Source: Chloroflexota bacterium (GTDB lineage: Bacteria > Chloroflexota > UBA11872). Taken from it: a stretch of 64,000 nt of DNA. The notes below the pieces were generated by a model. That model made no database searches, was not told the origin of the DNA, and worked only from the letters and a program-made list of their open reading frames with translations. Numbering within the stretch: the first letter of the stretch is position 1; each line of letters opens with the position of its first letter. The DNA lies in the NCBI GenBank assembly GCA_026707585.1, contig JAPOWQ010000041.1, forward strand, positions 1 through 64,000, written 5' to 3'. The position numbers and the translations under genes were made by a program. Shown here one piece after another: positions 3,001 through 26,419 of the stretch.

Positions 3001-6000
3001 GGAAGGAGATCACCGGCGCCTCGTTGTCGGTGATGGTGATGTCCGCCGCCGTCACCGGTCGGGCGCCCGACTGACCGGAGACCGCGATGGCCTCGTCGCC
3101 CTCCAACTCCGCGTCGTCAACGGGGGTGATCGTCAACGTGCCGTCGGCGGTGGTTTCGCCTTTCGGGATGGTGATGCTGGCCAGCGCCGAGGCTGTGTAG
3201 TCCGCCGGATCCGTCGCGGTCCCGCCCAACGTGAGGTTGACGGTAGTGGACGTGTCGCGGGCGTCGCTCATGGTCGCCGTCACCGTGACTTCGGTGGCGG
3301 CGGCGCCTTCAGATATGGAGGCGGGGTCCACGCCGAGGGTGATGCTCTCAGGGTTGCCGATGGTGACCACGGCATCGCTGACAGCCGCGCCGGGAGCGGT
3401 CCCCGACAGAATGACGGACTCGTTGCCTTCGTCCTCATTGTCGGTGTTGACGGTGAAGGTCAGGGTGAACGTTGTGCTGGTTTCGCCCGGCGCGATACGC
3501 GGGGCAGTGCTGAATGTCCAGATCGTGTAGTCGATCCCGTCCGTGGCGGTGCCGCCACCCACTGACAACTCAATCGTGTGGTCGCCCTCCGTTCCGTCCC
3601 GAGTCGCCGTGAGGGTGACCTGCTCGGCGAGTTGCCCTTCCTGGATGTACTCGGGGTTCACGCTCAGCGTGATATAGGCGGGTTCGTCGCTGGCGGCGAT
3701 GGTGGCGGTGGCGCTGGACGCCGCCGAGTCGAGGGACACCGAATCCGACAGGTCACCGCCCACCGCGCCAAGGGTGACGGTGAATGTCTCGGCGTCCTCC
3801 GCATCGGTGTCGTCGGTGATGGGGATGCTGATGGTCTGGGTGGAGCCGGCGGCGGAGCCAGCCGCGAAGGTCACGGTGCCGGAGGTAGCGCCCAGATCGG
3901 CCGCCGTGGCCGTGTCGGTGCTCAGGGGTGCCGACCATGCCACCGTGGTCTCTTTCGCCACTGCTGCCGACAGCGTCACCGTGAAGTCGGCGTTCGCTCC
4001 CTCGGCCACCTCGTCGGACGGGCCGGTGATGCCCACCGTTGCGGTGTCGTTGTCGGTGAGGTTTATGGAGGCCGGACGAATCAGCAGGCCGGTGGCGGTG
4101 CCATTCAAGTCGACGGTGGCGCTGCCGTTGACGACGATGGTCTCGTCGCCCTCCACCACCGCGTCCTCCACGGGCGTGATGCTCAAGGAGGCGGAGCCGG
4201 TGGCGGTGGACGCCGGAATGGTCACATTGGCGATGGCGGCGGTGTAGTCATCCGTGCCGGTCGCCGTCCCGCCGAGGGAGACCGTCACCGTGGTTGGGTC
4301 GTCGAAGGTGGTGCAGCAGTCCAGGTCCACCTCGACGGTGAAGCTGGTGGCGGCGTCACCCTCGCCAACGCCGCTGTCGGGCGTCACCGTGAGGGTCGCG
4401 CCGTAGAGGGGTCCGGCGGCGTCCACGATGCCCGTGGTCGCCATGCTGGCGCCGAGGGTGGGCGCGAGGCCGCCGCCGCCCCAGGGGCTGGACAGCAGCA
4501 AGCGGAAGTACTCGACGACCTCCTTGGTGCTGTCGGTCAGGATGGGCACCCGCACCCGCTTGCTGGTCTCGCCGGGCACGAAGGTCAGCGTGCCGGACTG
4601 GGGCGTGAAGTCGTCGCCGGAGGTGGCCAGGGCCAGCGGGGCGAGCGCGCTGTAGGTCTGGTAGTTCACCGTCAGATTGGCGGTGGGCGCCCGGCTCAGC
4701 GACACCATGAAGTCGGCGTTCCCGCCCTCGACGACCGTCTCCGGGCCTTCGACCGAGACCATCATGGCCCGGTCTCTGATGGTGGTGGTGGCCGTGGCGG
4801 TGCCCAGTAGGGCCGGGGTGATGTTGGTGCCGCCCGCGAAATACATCTCCGGGTCGGAGAGCGTCAGGCTGAACGTCTCGTCGGTCTCGTCCAGATTGTC
4901 CGCCGTGATGGGCACCAAGATCTCCCAATCCGAATTCCGCCGCCGGATTTCCTCCATGGTGGGAGTAGTGGAAGCGCCGGGAACGGGCATCTCCAGCCTG
5001 CCGGAAACGGCGATGTAGTCCGTTCCCGCCTCGGCGGTGCCGTCGGATGTGGTGTAGCTCACCCTGGCCCCGAAGGAGGAGTGGAGATCGACGTTCCGCG
5101 TCACGATGAATCGAGCCATGGTCCCTTCGTCCACGAACTCGGGACCGCTGATGGAGAAGGTCAGGGGGGTCGATTTGATGGTGGTGGTGACCGACGAGTC
5201 CCCCAGCACCACGGGCGTCGCGCCCCCGCCCCGGAGATTGGATAGGGAAAGCGTGAACGTCTCATCCGCGTCCCCCTTGGAGTCGTTGACGAGATAGACG
5301 AACACGGTGTAGAAGGTCACACCGAAATCGTTGACGTTGTACTGGGTCTCCCGGCTCGGGCCTATGGTCAGGGTCTGGGACACCCGCGAGTAGTCGCCCG
5401 TCTGGCCGCCGATGCAGTCGTTGAGGCGGCCGTCGCAACCCGTAGCGGTCCCGTCGGAGGTGGAGACGTCCACCCGAACGTCGGCGTCGACCGGCCCGGA
5501 GAGAATGACGTGGTAGACGGCAAAGTCACCGTCCCGCAGGTGGGCGAAGGCCCGCGGGCCCATCAGGGTCACCGTCACGAACTTGCCGGCGGCGATGGTG
5601 ACGTCGTCGCCGGACATGGCCGAATCCACCGATACCCGGGAGCCAAGGTCACTGATGACGCTCCCGAGCGTCACGGTGAAGGCCTCCTGTCGCTCCTCAA
5701 TCCCATCGTCGGCGATAGCCAAGGAGATCGTCTCGACGGCGCCGGCGGCCGATCCCGCCGGGAAGACGACGCTGCCGGAGTCCGGGGCGTAATCGTCGGC
5801 GGAGGCGGGGGCCACGGCCGTGGAGCCGGCCGACCAGGTCACCACGACCTGGGAGGCCACCGCGTGGGACAGGGTGACGGTGAAGTCGGCGGTGTCGCCC
5901 TCGGCGACCACGAATTTGCCGGCCTCGGTGGCCAGACCGGTCGGGCGGGTGATGCCTACCGTCGCGGTGTCGTCGTCGGTGATAGTGATGGTGGCCGGCG

Positions 6001-18331: not shown

Positions 18332-19633
18332 CTACTCGTACCGCAGCGCTTCGATCGGCGCGAGACGCGAGGCGCGCGAGGCCGGGTAGATGCCGAACAC
18401 CAGGCCGATCACCACGGACACGACGAGTGCCAGGATGATGGGCTCCAGGGTGATGGTGGTGGTCAATCCGCCGGCGAATGGGTTTCCGCGCGGTCCGCCG
18501 CCACCCGTCGGCTGCTCGGCGCCAGCGCCGAGGTCATTGAGCCCGAGGGATATCGCGACGCCCAGCAATACGCCGGCCAGCCCGCCGCCCATGCTGACGG
18601 CCACGGCCTCGATCATGAACTGCGACATAATGTCGCGCCGCTTGGCGCCGATGGCCTTGCGGATGCCGATCTCGCGAGTCCGTTCGGTGACCGACACCAG
18701 CATGATGTTCATGATGCCGATGCCGCCGACCAACAGCGAGATGCCGGCCACCGCGCCCAGGAACAGCGACATGGTGGCCGTAATCTCCGAGATGGTCTCG
18801 ATCTGATCGGCCTGGCTCCCGACCGTGAAGTCTTGCTCCTCCGAGTCATGGCGGCTGAGTAGAAGGTTCTCGATGGCCTGTGTTACCCCGGCCACGGTGG
18901 CGTCGCTCTCGTCCACCAGTTGCACCACGATCGACGAGACCACGTCGTCACCCGCTGAGGTCTTGGACGGGTTCACGCGGCTCGTCAGGGTGGGTAGGGG
19001 AATAAAGGCCGAATCGTCATTGCTTTGAAACGTACTCCCGCCGTCTGAAGCCAGAACGCCGACAATTGTGAATGGCTGGGTATTGAGCCGTACCGTCTCG
19101 CCCACAGCGTCGCCGTTGGGAAAGAGGTCGGTTGCCAGGGTGTCTCCGATGACCACCACGCGCGAGGCCCGTTCTACATCGTCGGCCGAGAAGAAGGAGC
19201 CTGTGCCGATCTCAGCATTTCGCACGGCCGGGTAAACCTCCGAGACACCGTTGACCGAGGCTTGAACCGCGCCTTCTGCGGACACGAACGACCCATTGAA
19301 CGACCTGGAGGCATAGAGCGCCGTGATGCCGCGGATGTTGGCTTCCTCAATGGCGTCGGCGTCCTGCGCCGTGAGCGTTCGGACGCCACCGCTGCCGCCG
19401 CGAGTACGAAACCCGCCAAATCGGTTGCTCGTGGCGCCAGGACTCACGGACAGCAAGTTCGTGCCGGCCTCACGAATGCGCTCTTCAATTGAGGTCTGTA
19501 CGCCGGCGCCGATCGACATGAGGGTGATCACGGCGGCCACGCCGATCACCATGCCGAGCAGGGTGAGTGCCGTACGCAGTTTGTTGGCCGCCAGTGCTCG
19601 GAAAGCAACGCGAAATCCGTCGGCTGCGGTCAT
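18332..19633 (-). CDS. MacB/FtsX-type ABC transporter permease
   Basis: The 433-aa protein begins with a cytoplasmic helix and TM1 ([20 protein letters not shown]). A large extracytoplasmic MacB_PCD domain follows (about residues 45-280; [26 protein letters not shown]). It ends with three TM helices ([20 protein letters not shown]; a helix near [38 protein letters not shown]) and closes [12 protein letters not shown], as in MacB-type permeases. These are mechanotransmission exporters rather than channel-forming ABC transporters. The start overlaps the end of the ATPase gene by 4 nt, so the two are translationally coupled. It is the last gene of a three-gene operon. Confidence 0.92.
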
Positions 19634-20334
19634 TCCATCACCTCGTCCTTCTCGAGTAGACCGTCGCGGAGCCTGATCACTCGACGCGCCCGCAAGGCGA
19701 CTTCCATTTCGTGGGTCACCAGAATAGTCGTGATGCCGTGCTCTTGGTTTAGCTGCTCAATCGCATCCATTATTTCGACGGCGGACGCCGTATCGAGATT
19801 GCCGGTTGGTTCGTCAGCCAGGAGGAGTTGCGGCCGGGTGACCAGGGCACGAGCGATGGCCACGCGCTGCTGCTGGCCGCCGGAGAGTTCGACCGGCGAG
19901 TGGTCGACCCGGTCGGCTAGACCAACGGTGGCCAAGGCCTCGAGCGCACGATCCCGACGCTTGCGCGCACCGGCATACATCAGCGGCAGTTCAACCTGCT
20001 CGCGCGCCGTCATGCGCGGGAGCAGATTGAATGACTGGAAGACGAAGCCGATCTTGCGCAGGCGGATGTCGGCCAGCGCGTCCTCGCTGAGGCCTTCCAC
20101 GTCCTCGCCGTCCAGCCGATAGCTGCCCTCGGTTGGACTATCCAGGCAGCCCAGCAGGTTCATGGCCGTGGATTTGCCCGAGCCCGAAGGTCCCATGATG
20201 GCCACCATCTCGCCAGGTTCAATCTTGAACGTGACACCGCGCAGAGCCTCAACCTTGACATCGCCCATCTGGTAGGTCTTGGTGAGACCTACGACGTCAA
20301 TCGTCGGCGGCGGACGGTCGGAGGCCCCTGACAT
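19630..20334 (-). CDS. MacB/LolD-type ABC transporter ATP-binding protein
   Basis: This is a 234-aa single nucleotide-binding domain. Visible motifs are Walker [10 protein letters not shown]-loop [10 protein letters not shown], signature [15 protein letters not shown], Walker [13 protein letters not shown] and the H-loop THEME. The sequence is typical of the LolD/MacB subfamily that powers FtsX-like permeases. It starts 2 nt after the adaptor gene's stop and overlaps the permease start, so the three proteins form one tripartite export system. The substrate is unknown; antimicrobial peptides, lipids or secreted proteins are usual for this type. Confidence 0.95.
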
Positions 20335-20336
20335 GG

Positions 20337-23072
20337 CTAGGCGCCTCCGCCCCCACCTCCGCCGGCGGCACCCCCACCGGCCCGCTGGCCCCGTTGGCCG
20401 CCCTGACCGCCTTGGCCACGCTGACCCTGGAACTGACCGGGCTGGATGCCAGGTGGCGGCGTGCGGCCTTGAAAGCCCGCAGGCGGCCCGCCCTGGGTTC
20501 CCTGTAGGTTTGGCGCGGCCTGGCCGGCAGCTGGCTGAGCGCCGCCCCCGGCCGGTTGTGCACTGCCAGACGCCGGTTGCGCGCCGCCGGGCGCTGGTTG
20601 TACGCCCGCACCGGCGCCAGCCTGACCGCCGACTGGGCCGCCCTGGCCGGCTCCACCGGGCTGTGCGCCCTGGCTCTCCGCGCCTCCAGCGGCCTCGCGA
20701 GCGGCCTGGGCGGCGGCTCGAGCTTCCGCAAGAGCCTGCGCGACATTTGGCATGACGAGTTCGCCAGCCTTCAGGCCGGAGACAATCTCGATCAGCAGTC
20801 GGCCGCTAAGGCCCGTCTGGACCACGCGGCGGCTCGAAGTGCCGTCAGCAGCCGCCACGAATACCAGGCCGCCTCGCGGCGTCGTCTGCACGGCGGCCTT
20901 GGGGACGACGATCACGTTGCGCGCTTCAGCGACCAGGATCTCGACGTCCGCCGTCAGGCCGGCTCGCAGCTGCTCATCCGGCGCGTCCAACGAAATGTCG
21001 ACGGGGAACGTCACCAGACCTTGATCGACTTCACCCTGTACAGCTATCCAGGCCACCTTGCCCGTGTATTCGCGGTCATCCAGGGCTGCGAAGGTCAGAT
21101 CGACAGGCTGACCGACCCCCAGCATCCCAATGTCGTTCTCATCGATGTTGATGCGAACCCGCAGGCTGTCGGACACACCGACCGTGAGGAACGCGGCGGA
21201 GACCCGCTCGCCAACGTCGGCGTCCACCGTGAGAACGACTCCGGTCGTAGGCGAGATGAGCGTTGCGTCGGCCAGAGCCGTGCGTGCCGTTTCGAGTGCG
21301 CGGGTTGCATCCGACAATGCCAGCTCCAGGCGCTCGACCCCAAGCGGATCGGGCTCGGGCTCGGCGTCCTCTCGCAGGTCGGCCAGATCGATCTCGGCGC
21401 GGGCGATTGCCAGTTCGGCCTGGCGCAGCTGCGATGCGTCAGCCCCGGCCAGCAAGTCGGCCAGCTTGGCCTCGGCGTCAGCCAGGCCTGCGAGGGCCGA
21501 GGCGACATTCTGTTCTGCGACGAGAACGTCTTCTTCAGCCAGGCGCACGTCCTCTTCTGCCAGCTGCACGTCTTCTTCTGCCTTGCGCACATCGGCAGGG
21601 TCGGCGTCCGCCGTGAGGTCGGCCAGCCTGGCGCGCGCCACGGCCAGGGCGCTCTCGGCCGAAGCGACATTGGCGCGTCGCGTGGCCAGATCGGTCGCGC
21701 TCGCGCCGGCCAGCAGGTCCTCCAACTCGGCCGCGGCGGTCGCCTCGTTGCGCTGGGCGGTCGTAATCGCCTCGTTGAGCTCCACAAGGTCCGGACCTGT
21801 CGCCAAGTCGTCGCGGGCGGCCTGTGCGACGGCCAGGTTGGCTTCGGCGGCGGTCAGGTTGGCCTGAGCCTCGGCAAGCTCTTCCGGGGTGGCGGGCTGC
21901 AACGCCTTCTGATAATCAAGCTGGGCCTGGTGATAGACCACACCGGCGCGTTCCTTGGCCTCGGCGCTGGCATTGCTGCCGGTGCGAACGGTGTCGTCAT
22001 GCGTCAGCCGCGCCTGTTCGAGCGCGATCTCGGCATCGCGGATGTCGTCAGGGGTCGGCTTCGCCTGCAAATCCGTCAGGTTCACCCTAGCGGTTATGAC
22101 GGCCGCTTGGGCGCTGGCCAGCCTTGCCTCGGCGTCCGTAAGCGCGGATGGGTGATCGGACACCGCGGAGTCCAGGTTGCGCCGGGCGGCCGCGACAGCC
22201 TCCTGCGCAGCCACCAGGCTGTCGCGCGCTCTCTGGACTTCGAGCCCGGTCGCTCCGGCCAACAGATCGGTCAGGGCGCCCTGCGCGCTGATCAGCGACG
22301 CTTCGGCTGACGTCACGCTGCTCTCAGCCTCGGCGACTTCTGTTGCCGTCGCGTCGGCCAGCAAATCAGCCAGGCTGTCGCGGGCCGTGTGCACCTGCGC
22401 CTGAGCGGAGGTCACCCGCGCCTGGGCGGAGGTAACGTTCGCCCGCGCCGAGGCCACCTGCGCGCTGGACGAGGCCACCGATGCTTCGGCCGACGCAATG
22501 CTGGCCGCATCGGGCGGGATCTGCAGGTCTTCAAGCGCGGCGCGGGCCTCGGCCAGGTCCAGTTCGGCCCGGCGTATTGCGTACACGTTCGGATCGGGTT
22601 CCAGGTCCTCGAGGAACTCAGCCAGGTCCAGTTCGGTCCGGCGTAGGGCCGAAACGGCATCGTCGATGTCGCGCGTCAGGTCGTCCGCTTCCTGCAAGGC
22701 CAAAACGTCACCGGCGGACACCACGACACCGGGGCCCACCTTGAGTTCGGTGAGCACCCCGGCGTTTTCGAATCCGACCTGAACCAGTGTTCCGAAGTCC
22801 AGCGTGCCGGTCGCCGGCACAGTGACCAGCAGATCCTGTCGTACGGCTTCCACCGGCTGCGGCGGCGCCACCACCACTTCCTCTTCTTGCACGCGCGGGA
22901 GCACGACGTAGAAGACGAACGCGGCGATAGCCGCAAGCAGCACGAGCCATAGCCAAAAACGGCGCACCAGTCCGACCAATGCCCGTACTGGCCACACGAC
23001 CACGCGACCGATCCGGCGCAGCCGAGCAGCTCTTGGTGGCGATTGATCATGCTCCGGCGGGTTTTGCATCAT
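20337..23072 (-). CDS. HlyD/MacA-type efflux adaptor with very long multi-hairpin coiled coil
   Basis: At 911 aa this is more than twice the usual MacA length (about 370). It has an N-terminal membrane anchor ([19 protein letters not shown], about residues 39-57), a split lipoyl/barrel-sandwich domain and a beta-barrel region ([19 protein letters not shown]). Between the lipoyl halves lies an Ala/Leu/Glu-rich helical region of about 470 residues in repeated units of roughly 60-70, several ending LxDLLAGA. The C-terminal ~130 residues are low-complexity Gly/Gln/Pro/Ala. It is first gene of the operon, followed by ATPase and permease, and lies about 50 nt downstream of a TGCA operator array. 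An adaptor normally bridges the permease to an outer partner; here it may extend through a thick wall or surface layer. Confidence 0.9.
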
Positions 23073-23123
23073 GGACTCACTCGATAGATTTCCCGTCTTC
23101 GGCGGAGCTTAGTACGAAGCCTA

Positions 23124-23160
23124 TGCAAGCGATATGCACGCGGCGTGCATCTCCAGTGCA
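23124..23160. promoter_or_regulatory. TGCA array A (four repeats, 11-bp period) upstream of the efflux operon
   Basis: TGCA occurs at 23124, 23135, 23146 and 23157, exactly one helical turn apart, each preceded by A or G. This is the geometry of direct-repeat operators bound by OmpR/PhoB-type regulators. The array ends about 50 nt upstream of the adaptor start (23072). The same array is found beside the kinase/regulator genes and before the secreted protein at 25604. Confidence 0.6.
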
Positions 23161-23189
23161 ACCGGAGGTTCCTTCACTCCAGGGGGCAA

Positions 23190-24560
23190 TCATGGTGGTG
23201 TGGGCTCGATTGGAAGCCGCAGACTCACGGTGGCGCCCGGCCCGTCGACGTTGTTGCGGGCGAAAGCCTCGCCCCCATGGGCTCGTGCGATGCCGCGGAC
23301 GATGGCCAGGCCCAGCCCGGTCCCGCCCTGGGCTCGGCTACGCGAACTGTCCGCCCTATAGAACCGGTCGAAGACGCGCGGCAGTTCATCGGGACCAAAG
23401 CCAGGACCGGAGTCGATGACCTCCAGCGAGACCCAGTCGCGTCCCTGCGCGTCCGTCGTCCGTCTGGCCCGGACGGCGATGGCGCCACTGCTGGGTGTGT
23501 GGGTCAGCGCGTTGCGCACGAGGTTGTCGAGGGCCTGATCAATCCGGGTTCGGTCGACCCGAACTAGCGCATCATCGGCAGCGTTCTCGATACGCAGCGT
23601 AAGGTCGCGCTCAGCGGCCAACGGCGAGTGGCGTTGGTGAGCCGCCTGCAGCAAGGCTCCAACGCCCATGTCTGTTCGTTCAAGTCGCAACTGGCCAACC
23701 TCAGCCAGCGAGAGGTCTCGAATGTCATTGATCAGTTGCGTGAGCATGTCCACCCGTCGCATAACGGTTTCGACGTGCGCCGCGCTGGGCTTGTAGACGC
23801 CGTCGCCCAGCGCCTGCACGGTGCTGCGGATGACGGCCAGGGGAGTCCGCAACTCGTGCGCAATGTCCGCGAAGAGTTGGCGACGGGACTCCTCGTTGCG
23901 TTCCAGCGTCTCGGTCATCTGATCGAACGAACGCGCCAGGGTGCCAATGTCATCGTTTCGCTGAATACCGGTACGCCGCGAGAAGTCACCTTCGGCGATG
24001 GCCTGGGCGGATTCGCGCAGCGTGTGAACCGGCCGCGTGACTTGGCGCGCGAGATAGACGGCCATCGCCGCCGCCACGGCCCCTCCGGCCAGCAGGGCCA
24101 GGGTCAACGCAATGCCGATTTCTCGCATAAATACATCCTCGGCGAATCGGAGCTGCGCCAACGCCTCGCGCGGCAGGCCTCGGCTCCCAATATCTGCAAA
24201 GTAGGCCGTGGCCACCGTCCGGCCGTCCACATTGATGGGGATGGCTCGCCAGCGGCTGAGGTCCGGCGGCCGACCGGACACCTCCGGCCCCACGTTGCCC
24301 CCAACGAACGCGCCGTCTGGATCCAACACCACATAGGGCAATCCCCGTCCAGGGCCTGAACGCCGTAATCCAAACGCACCGGTGGCGGCGTACGTGAGAC
24401 TGAGCTGTTCGGCAACGGCCGTCTGCTGCCGCTCGCGCACATTGGCGGCGTAGCGCTGGAAGCTGCTGGCGATGGATCGATTGATCAGCAGCGCGGTGAC
24501 GCCGACGGCCACCAACGAGACGGCCACGAACGCCAACGTGAGACGCACACGCAGGCTCAC
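23190..24560 (-). CDS. Membrane sensor histidine kinase (BaeS/CpxA-like architecture)
   Basis: The 456-aa kinase has TM1 (LTLAFVAVSLVAVGVTALLI, residues 7-26) and an extracytoplasmic sensor of about 120 residues. TM2 follows (IALTLALLAGGAVAAAMAVY), then HAMP (RQVTRPVHTLRESAQ). The HisKA H-box is FADIAHELRTPLAVI. The ATPase domain shows N-box NLVRNALTHTP, G1 IDSGPGFG, F-box FDRFYRAD and G2 GGTGLGLAIV. It should autophosphorylate on the His and pass phosphate to the regulator encoded divergently at 24770. The divergent gene order is less usual than an operon, and the shared region carries a TGCA array suggesting autoregulation. Confidence 0.93.
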   Translation of the reverse strand: MSLRVRLTLAFVAVSLVAVGVTALLINRSIASSFQRYAANVRERQQTAVAEQLSLTYAATGAFGLRRSGPGRGLPYVVLDPDGAFVGGNVGPEVSGRPPDLSRWRAIPINVDGRTVATAYFADIGSRGLPREALAQLRFAEDVFMREIGIALTLALLAGGAVAAAMAVYLARQVTRPVHTLRESAQAIAEGDFSRRTGIQRNDDIGTLARSFDQMTETLERNEESRRQLFADIAHELRTPLAVIRSTVQALGDGVYKPSAAHVETVMRRVDMLTQLINDIRDLSLAEVGQLRLERTDMGVGALLQAAHQRHSPLAAERDLTLRIENAADDALVRVDRTRIDQALDNLVRNALTHTPSSGAIAVRARRTTDAQGRDWVSLEVIDSGPGFGPDELPRVFDRFYRADSSRSRAQGGTGLGLAIVRGIARAHGGEAFARNNVDGPGATVSLRLPIEPTPP

Positions 24561-24622
24561 GGCTCAACCGCCTTCCAGCCTTCTGCCGGCATTCATCCAA
24601 CCGTGAGGGTATCGACCGTGCG

Positions 24623-24648
24623 TGCACGCCATGTGCAGGCGGTGTGCA
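24623..24648. promoter_or_regulatory. TGCA array B (three repeats, 11-bp period) between kinase and regulator genes
   Basis: TGCA occurs at 24623, 24634 and 24645 in near-identical 11-mers (GTGCACGCCAT, GTGCAGGCGGT, GTGCACGCGGT). It lies 63 nt from the kinase start and 122 nt from the regulator start. From this position it could control both divergent genes. Confidence 0.6.
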
Positions 24649-24769
24649 CGCGGTCTGGCGCCGGCGAGCCTGGCGGCCTGGCGACTACCGCCCCGGCGCG
24701 GCGCCGACGCCACCCCGTGTAAGAATCAAACGCGCGGAAACCTGCGACGAAACGCGGACCGAACCCGAC

Positions 24770-25468
24770 ATGCCGAGTTCTGGACTGATTCTGGTCGTCG
24801 ACGACGAACCGGACATTCGGCGGGTCGTCCGTGCCTACCTGGAGCGCGACGGCCTAAACGTCATCACGGCCGGCGATGGCGCCGAGGCCCTGCGCCTGGC
24901 CCGCCAGCGCCGGCCGAACGCCGTGGTGCTGGATCTGATGTTGCCCGATGTGCAGGGTCTTGATGTCTGTCGCCAGTTGCGAGCTGAATCGAACATTCCC
25001 GTACTGATGCTGACCGCCCGTGACGACATTACCGACAAGGTCGTGGGTCTGCAGATAGGCGCCGACGACTATGTCACCAAGCCGTTCGATATCCGCGAAG
25101 TCGTGGCCCGCGTCCACGCGCTCCTTCGGCGCGCGACCACTACGGATGACGTCGAAGGTCCGCTACGGGTTGGCGGCCTGACGCTCGACCCTGGCACCCG
25201 CCAGGTGCGGCGTGACGGCGAGGCAATCCAGCTGACAAAGGTGCAGTTCGATTTGCTGGCGTCGCTGATGCGCCATCCCGGCCGCGTGTTAACCCGCGAA
25301 GCTCTGGTCGAGCGCATCGTCGACGACGACCGTCCCACCCTGCCGCGATCCATCGATAGCCACATTCGCAACCTGCGTAAGCGGATCGAACCGGTGCCCT
25401 CGCGCCCGCGGTATGTGCTGACTGTGCCAGGGGTCGGATATCGGTTCGCCCAACCGAGCGGCGGATAG
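24770..25468 (+). CDS. OmpR/PhoB-family response regulator
   Basis: I chose ATG 24770 (MPSSGLILVVDDEPD) because the receiver domain begins there; upstream in-frame codons encode unlikely sequence. The 232-aa protein has the acidic pocket VVDDEP, the phosphoacceptor Asp in VVLDLMLPDV, the switch Thr in LTAR and the conserved Lys in VTKPFD. A C-terminal winged helix follows (LTKVQFDLLASLMRHPGRVL; ending VPGVGYRFAQP). Proteins of this family bind as head-to-tail dimers to direct repeats with an 11-bp period, which matches the TGCA arrays at 23124, 24623 and 25492. Its partner is the divergent kinase. Confidence 0.95.
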   Translation: MPSSGLILVVDDEPDIRRVVRAYLERDGLNVITAGDGAEALRLARQRRPNAVVLDLMLPDVQGLDVCRQLRAESNIPVLMLTARDDITDKVVGLQIGADDYVTKPFDIREVVARVHALLRRATTTDDVEGPLRVGGLTLDPGTRQVRRDGEAIQLTKVQFDLLASLMRHPGRVLTREALVERIVDDDRPTLPRSIDSHIRNLRKRIEPVPSRPRYVLTVPGVGYRFAQPSGG

Positions 25469-25491
25469 CAACCCGCACAACTCCAACAGGA

Positions 25492-25528
25492 TGCACGGAA
25501 CTCGCATCCACCGTGCATCGTGCGTCCA
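25492..25528. promoter_or_regulatory. TGCA array C (11-bp period, degenerate) upstream of the secreted repeat protein
   Basis: TGCA at 25492, CGCA at 25503, TGCA at 25514 and TCCA at 25525 keep the exact 11-bp phase of the other two arrays. It lies after the regulator gene's stop and about 76 nt before the GTG at 25604, so it most likely controls that gene. Confidence 0.5.
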
Positions 25529-25603
25529 TCAGCCGCCCCAACACTGCTTTTCGTAAACGTTGTGCTGGCCTCGAAGTGGCCGGCGCTTGCGAAAGGAGGC
25601 GTC

Positions 25604-26419
25604 GTGAGACCCCGAATTCGAACCCTGGTCGCCGCACTCGCCGCGGTGGTCCTCTTGACGGTCGTGACCGTCAGCGCGGTCCTCGCGCATGGCGGCCTTG
25701 GACGCGGCGGCGGCGATTCCAGCGTTGCGACCGCCATCGAAGAGCAGACCGGACTCAGCCGGGAAGACCTGCGAACCCGCATGCGGGGTGGCGAGTCCCT
25801 GGCGGGCATCATTGCGGCCGAGGGCGGAGACTTGGAAGCCGTGGTCACCGCGGCCCTTGAGGGACTCGACGAGAAGGTCGAGGTGCTGGTTGAGGCCGGC
25901 CGGCTTGAGCCCGACCAGGTGGACAACTACAAAGCCGCCGCCGAGCAGCGCGTGCGTGACTGGCTAGCCGGCACGTACGAAGGCAAGCGGGGCAAGGGCC
26001 GCGGCGGCCTGGGCGGCAAGGGCGTCGGCCTGATCGCCATCGTGTCCGAGCAGACGGGTATGTCGACTGACGACATCCGCACCAAGCTGACCGAGGAGCA
26101 GAGCCTGGCCGACGTGATCGAGGAAGCCGGCGGCGACCTGACCGCCGTGACCGACGCGGCCATGGCTGCCTTCGAAGAGCGGCTGACCGCAGCCATCGAC
26201 AGCGGACGTGTCAGCGCCGACAAGGCGGACGAGCTGCGCCAGGGCATGCGCGAGCGCATCGACGCCGCCCTGCAGGCTGACGGCGGTCCCGGCTGCCAGG
26301 GGCACGGCAAGTCCGGTTCCCGCGGCTGGGGTCGCGGGCACGGCCGCGACGGTGCCGGCGGCAAGACTGGGTTCGGCAAGGTCACGCTACCGCTTGGAGA
26401 GACCCCCTCAACGGCCTAG
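25604..26419 (+). CDS. Secreted protein with two copies of an ~80-residue helical repeat
   Basis: GTG 25604 follows AAAGGAGG by about 4 nt and begins directly at a signal peptide (MRPRIRTLVAALAAVVLLTV), so I prefer it to ATG 25520 upstream. The 271-aa product has two homologous helical units (about residues 42-120 and 141-220). They share an E-Q-T-G-[LM]-S-x-[DE]-D-[LI]-R-T core, then SLA-x-[IV]-I, GGDL and a [VR]-x-[VA]-D-[KQ] C-terminal part. A Gly/Lys/Arg-rich spacer (GKRGKGRGGLGGKG) and a Gly/Arg/His-rich tail flank the second unit. Similar tandem helical proteins occur in Chloroflexota without known function. Its operator array implies co-regulation with the efflux pump, perhaps as an extracytoplasmic stress or metal-binding protein. 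Confidence 0.8.
   Translation: MRPRIRTLVAALAAVVLLTVVTVSAVLAHGGLGRGGGDSSVATAIEEQTGLSREDLRTRMRGGESLAGIIAAEGGDLEAVVTAALEGLDEKVEVLVEAGRLEPDQVDNYKAAAEQRVRDWLAGTYEGKRGKGRGGLGGKGVGLIAIVSEQTGMSTDDIRTKLTEEQSLADVIEEAGGDLTAVTDAAMAAFEERLTAAIDSGRVSADKADELRQGMRERIDAALQADGGPGCQGHGKSGSRGWGRGHGRDGAGGKTGFGKVTLPLGETPSTA

Follow-up and report, generated by a model that had tools for sequence, protein, structure and literature searches.

TGCA arrays with an 11-bp period look like operators of a small envelope-related two-component regulon in an apparently unstudied bacterial family

The pho box is built on an 11-bp register, replaces the -35 element and lies about 10 nt upstream of the -10 element. Its regulator, PhoB, binds direct repeats in tandem, head to tail (PMC4415409, PMC8041468). 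The sites of CtrA in Caulobacter, written TTAA-N7-TTAA, are usually found at the -35 position (PMC11264516), and in E. coli an efflux operon, the secreted protein Spy and BaeR's own operon are under the direct control of BaeR (PMC7657598). In Streptomyces the sodF Nur site is written TTGCAN7TGCAA (PMC3219662); this nickel-regulator motif was the one text match to TGCA-N7-TGCA, no description of which as a response-regulator site was found in literature searches.

Here a locus from a Chloroflexota genome is compared with these systems. Within the window (that is, the whole stretch of DNA that was analysed, 64,000 nucleotides long), three arrays of TGCA and TGCA-like boxes stand before an exporter operon, a kinase gene and the gene for a secreted repeat protein; very probably these arrays serve the response regulator encoded at 24770, termed here RR1, as operators. 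The reading of them as a novel operator with its regulon, of a type already known, is well supported. The genes of the locus are as follows:

18332-19633, minus strand: MacB/FtsX-type permease (domain and profile matches)
19630-20334, minus strand: MacB/LolD-type ATPase (domain and profile matches)
20337-23072, minus strand: exporter adaptor, a HlyD/RND-type membrane-fusion protein of 911 aa (TIGR01730 above its cut-off)
23190-24560, minus strand: sensor histidine kinase with HAMP, HisKA and HATPase_c domains (best NCBIfam score BaeS-like, below the cut-off)
24770-25468, plus strand: RR1, an OmpR/PhoB-type response regulator and the proposed binder of the arrays (Pfam Response_reg and Trans_reg_C)
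25604-26419, plus strand: secreted protein with two copies of an all-helical unit of about 85 aa (single-sequence AlphaFold2, pLDDT about 85 inside the units)

The adaptor, the MacB-type ATPase and the MacB/FtsX-type permease are encoded in one operon and together have the make-up of a MacAB exporter; the MacB equivalog cut-off (966 bits) is unreached because the ATPase and permease are separate proteins, unlike the fused MacB of E. coli. For an adaptor it is of unusual length at 911 aa, and this length differs among relatives; the protein has an expanded helical region rich in alanine and a tail rich in Gly and Gln. Each unit of the secreted protein is predicted to consist of five helices, and neither Foldseek nor a sequence search found a structural relative in the PDB.

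RR1 matches the receiver domain PF00072 (110.5 bits) and the Trans_reg_C domain PF00486 (83.6 bits), both above cut-off, which confirms its assignment to the OmpR/PhoB type by an earlier, sequence-only reading of this DNA. Its closest solved relatives are MtrA, RegX3 and BaeR. Outside its own family, the nearest named relatives come from MAGs of Dehalococcoidia and Chloroflexi and share about 50% identity with it, which makes a place in the Chloroflexota likely. Scores against the PhoB (209.6 bits against a cut-off of 296.2), CtrA (151 against 350) and BaeR (200 against 380) models all fall short, so that RR1 belongs to the OmpR/PhoB family but stands outside every named orthologue group tested. 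Like the pho system, the locus combines an OmpR/PhoB-type regulator with direct repeats, but the boxes read TGCA rather than TGTCA, usually number four rather than two, and precede exporter and secreted-protein genes rather than phosphate genes. Like CtrA sites, they are four-letter self-complementary half-sites 7 nt apart, with TGCA in place of TTAA and with four boxes in one register. The kinds of target are those of BaeSR, and BaeS models score best for the kinase, though below their cut-offs (244 bits against 500 and 232 against 603); unlike in BaeSR, the exporter is a MacAB-type ABC system rather than the RND system MdtABC, the operator sequence differs, and no relation of the secreted protein to Spy was detected.

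The control elements proposed for the locus are the following:

23106-23111, minus strand: TAAGCT, a -10-like hexamer for the exporter operon, 12 nt past the nearest box and within a near-invariant block (23104-23115)
23124-23160, minus strand: array A, four TGCA boxes at 11-bp spacing, putative operator of the exporter operon (reads leftward)
24595-24600, minus strand: TTGGAT, a -10-like hexamer for the kinase gene, exactly 11 nt past box 4
24612-24648, minus strand: array B, TGCA/TGCA/TGCA/TCGA, putative operator of the kinase promoter
24716-24727, plus strand: invariant CGTGTAAGAATC, likely the extended -10 of the RR1 gene, away from the array
25492-25528, plus strand: array C, TGCA/CGCA/TGCA/TCCA, putative operator of the secreted repeat protein gene
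25540-25545, plus strand: -10-like AACACT of the secreted-protein gene, exactly 11 nt past box 4 of array C
25547-25596, plus strand: long hairpin in the leader of the secreted-protein gene, with its end at the Shine-Dalgarno sequence (sequence conserved; folding z = -1.55)

TGCA occurs at 23124, 23135, 23146 and 23157 in array A and at 24623, 24634 and 24645 in array B, and array C has TGCA at 25492, CGCA at 25503, TGCA at 25514 and TCCA at 25525. All of the positions given by the sequence-only reading are correct; its three TGCA boxes of array B stand as well, but their count does not, a fourth in-register box, TCGA at 24612-24615, having been overlooked. When spacings from 5 to 60 nt were tested across the 64-kb window, equally spaced TGCA triples were found at 11 nt only, as three overlapping triples. 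By pattern search, exact TGCA-N7-TGCA-N7-TGCA occurs at just two places in the 3.92-Mb genome, arrays A and B; from the TGCA frequency, chance would give 0.0008 such triples in 64 kb and 0.047 in the genome. If one mismatch is allowed, array C is found as well, together with four further places (a reversed control pattern gave two), one of which, C9:64809, is a true fourth site before a GNAT acetyltransferase gene. The match at C31:21130 was rejected: it lies inside a reading frame (...DDLMHDLCIRDALIVD...) and is conserved as coding sequence; the remaining two look like background. Such arrays are thus uncommon elsewhere in this genome, rather than equally frequent at random intergenic sites.

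Both the locus, in syntenic form, and the arrays are present in 11 of the 13 members of the genus, and all six genes--exporter, kinase, RR1 and secreted protein--keep the same order wherever the contig reaches (in G009 the permease is on a separate contig). RR1 itself is 90-94% identical across 10 genus relatives. Over the three intergenic regions of the 11 genomes, invariant columns number 40 of 44 in the boxes and 12 of 56 in the spacers (Fisher p = 9e-13); for array A alone the figures are 15/16 and 3/21. The alignment contains no indels inside the arrays, and the degenerate boxes of array C read C[GC]CA and T[CT]CA throughout the 11 genomes. The arrays are accordingly conserved before orthologues of these genes, as the earlier proposal of a regulon demanded. 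That the repeats might nevertheless arise by chance, or reflect a compositional or structural property of the DNA such as bending or nucleoid protein sites, is hardly credible: TGCA steps are indeed flexible and an 11-nt period is helical, but only 0.05 exact triples are expected genome-wide and all of those found lie at this locus, conservation is specific to the boxes, and the distance to the -10 is fixed.

The two other genus members, G002 and G003, yielded no RR1 match at E <= 1e-60. Both retain the exporter operon, with a permease 67-68% identical and the adaptor and ATPase genes adjacent; an array before these exporter genes was looked for and is absent. Because G003 is only 76% complete, the absence of the regulator is less certain there than in G002 (a single contig, 94% complete).

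Read in the direction of the gene, the promoters share one architecture: box-N7-box-N7-box-N7-box 4, followed by 11 nt and then by TAnnnT or a close variant, with box 4 usually degenerate (TCGA, TTGA, TCCA or TCAA). At 11 nt a TAnnnT-like hexamer stands in the GNAT and RR2 promoters (RR2 being a paralogous regulator described below) and in the secreted-protein, GNAT and YceI promoters of the sister genus; poorer fits are AACACT (secreted protein), TTGGAT (kinase) and GAGACT (lipoprotein), and the exporter's TAAGCT lies at 12 nt. The kinase hexamer is found in 10 of the 11 genomes, G008 reading CTAAAT at the same distance. Overall, 7 of 9 promoter classes have [N]AnnnT at an offset of exactly 11 nt, an agreement that none of 5000 controls with class-wise shifts equalled, although the classes include orthologous pairs, which makes them not fully independent, and the hexamer had been noticed ahead of the offset test. 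A search of 19 family genomes with the full architecture, a pattern built from known members, gave 22 matches, all in known promoter classes, and none with the control.

As direct repeats at helical-turn spacing, upstream of the system's own and its target genes, the arrays agree with what characterises OmpR/PhoB-family operators. Box sequence alone is silent on head-to-tail orientation because TGCA is its own reverse complement; it is the PhoB/CtrA-type activator geometry that leads to the proposal that RR1 binds the four boxes head to tail and recruits polymerase. According to this proposal, the adjacent kinase would phosphorylate RR1, and phosphorylated RR1 would bind with one protomer per 11-bp box, a four-box array probably holding two RR1 dimers. 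The last, usually degenerate box would end 11 nt before the -10 hexamer, and from this distance bound RR1 is proposed to cover the -35 zone and to recruit RNA polymerase there. RR1 would thereby switch on the MacAB-type exporter operon, its own kinase, the secreted helical-repeat protein and, elsewhere in the genome, the GNAT acetyltransferase. What the sequences show is the arrays themselves, their rarity and conservation, their constant register and distance to a -10-like hexamer, and their occurrence together with the regulator; that RR1 binds them, that it does so when phosphorylated, that it activates instead of repressing and that it answers envelope stress is what we infer.

RR1 probably acts at the arrays as an activator. 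Against the operator reading as a whole, the exporter spacing is 12 nt, not 11, and TTGGAT of the kinase gene is poor as a -10. The reverse arrangement, in which RR1 binds mainly as a repressor and blocks polymerase at the -35 zone until relieved under stress, is unlikely: the arrays do cover that zone, and PhoB and CtrA activate or repress depending on site position, but the fixed 11-nt distance to the -10 and the absence of a good -35 hexamer better suit activator-dependent promoters. More tentatively, the activator promoters might form a family-specific class--four 11-bp TGCA boxes with a weak fourth, a -10 at 11 nt and two regulator dimers wholly replacing the -35--with two paralogous regulators sharing one operator code across unlinked envelope genes; this is a serious possibility, if short of probable.

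The sequence-only reading had the regulator couple an exporter, its own synthesis and a secreted protein. Control of its own synthesis finds support on the kinase side, where array B stands at the promoter, but not for the RR1 gene, which is not immediately downstream of any array and has a separate promoter-like element (24716-24727), CGTGTAAGAATC, invariant in 11 genomes while its surroundings diverge. The regulon also reaches beyond the locus, to the array before the GNAT gene. At the secreted-protein gene, the base of the leader hairpin overlaps the GGAGG region, which suggests translational control; relatives show one-sided pair changes only, with no compensatory changes seen. An Rfam search yielded no match above cut-off.

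The array before the GNAT gene (G000:C9:64809) is recognisable in all 11 genus genomes that have the locus. Two genomes, G001 and G005, contain in addition a paralogous regulator-kinase pair, unlinked to the RR1 locus, whose regulator (RR2) is 57% identical to RR1 and has an array directly before its gene. In the sister genus there is a single regulator of this type, 56-58% identical to RR1 and 82-83% to RR2, and an array there sits before the secreted-protein gene that precedes the regulator; further arrays in that genus precede genes for a GNAT protein, a YceI-domain protein and a lipoprotein whose helical repeats are similar. The segment RSIDSHIRNLR, where the recognition helix lies in the OmpR/PhoB family, is shared unchanged by RR2 and the sister-genus regulators, and RR1 has it too, save for I-to-V changes in some genomes. 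It is doubtful that the GNAT and sister-genus sites belong to RR2 only, the RR1 regulon then being the three locus promoters. It is true that a similar spacer (AGRAT) separates box 1 from box 2 in the GNAT and RR2 arrays and that several genomes have less perfect GNAT boxes; but the GNAT array is kept in RR1 genomes with no RR2 at E <= 1e-60, such as G004 and G010, and the recognition segments agree as just described.

Upstream of the more distant regulators examined, in the genome's own contigs and in the phylum, no three boxes with at most one mismatch were found. Some of the TGCA triples met in other families of the phylum are tandem repeats or palindromes (G082, G045), and the 3-kb surroundings examined outside the genus contained no homologue of RR1, the kinase, the secreted protein or the adaptor, for which reason such triples are not counted as members. 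The proposed binding of RR1 to the arrays is well supported by the co-occurrence of regulator and arrays and by the paralogue. Very unlikely is the reading that the arrays serve another regulator co-evolving with the locus, such as a repressor of the Fur/Nur type. Two TGCA words do occur in a known Nur-type motif, and palindromic TGCA is ambiguous, but here three to four boxes stand in one register rather than as one inverted pair, the flanks are not the TTGCA...TGCAA of a Nur/Fur-type operator, and the arrays track RR1/RR2-type regulators, being absent without them and present at an unlinked paralogous system.

Reading the arrays as operators of RR1 gives an operator, a promoter geometry and a target list for a two-component system of this family. 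With secreted helical-repeat proteins, a YceI-domain protein and a MacAB exporter among them, the targets point to a response to envelope stress. Since RR1, RR2 and the sister-genus regulator have one recognition segment and one operator, they form a natural test set for the relation of recognition residues to half-site sequence, for the sharing of sites by paralogous systems and for the rewiring of regulons when genes move.

Two minor observations concern individual upstream regions. At L203 (G015:C75), upstream of a regulator gene, a poly-G/poly-C stretch and a run of N are probably an assembly fault. The sister-genus adaptor gene is preceded by TCCA/TGCA/TCAA in 11-bp register, which is conserved and resembles a weaker array (L288, about 3990-4083, with equivalents in L289-L291, L294 and L295); it was left out of the member count and suggests that the exporter of the sister genus may also be under array control.
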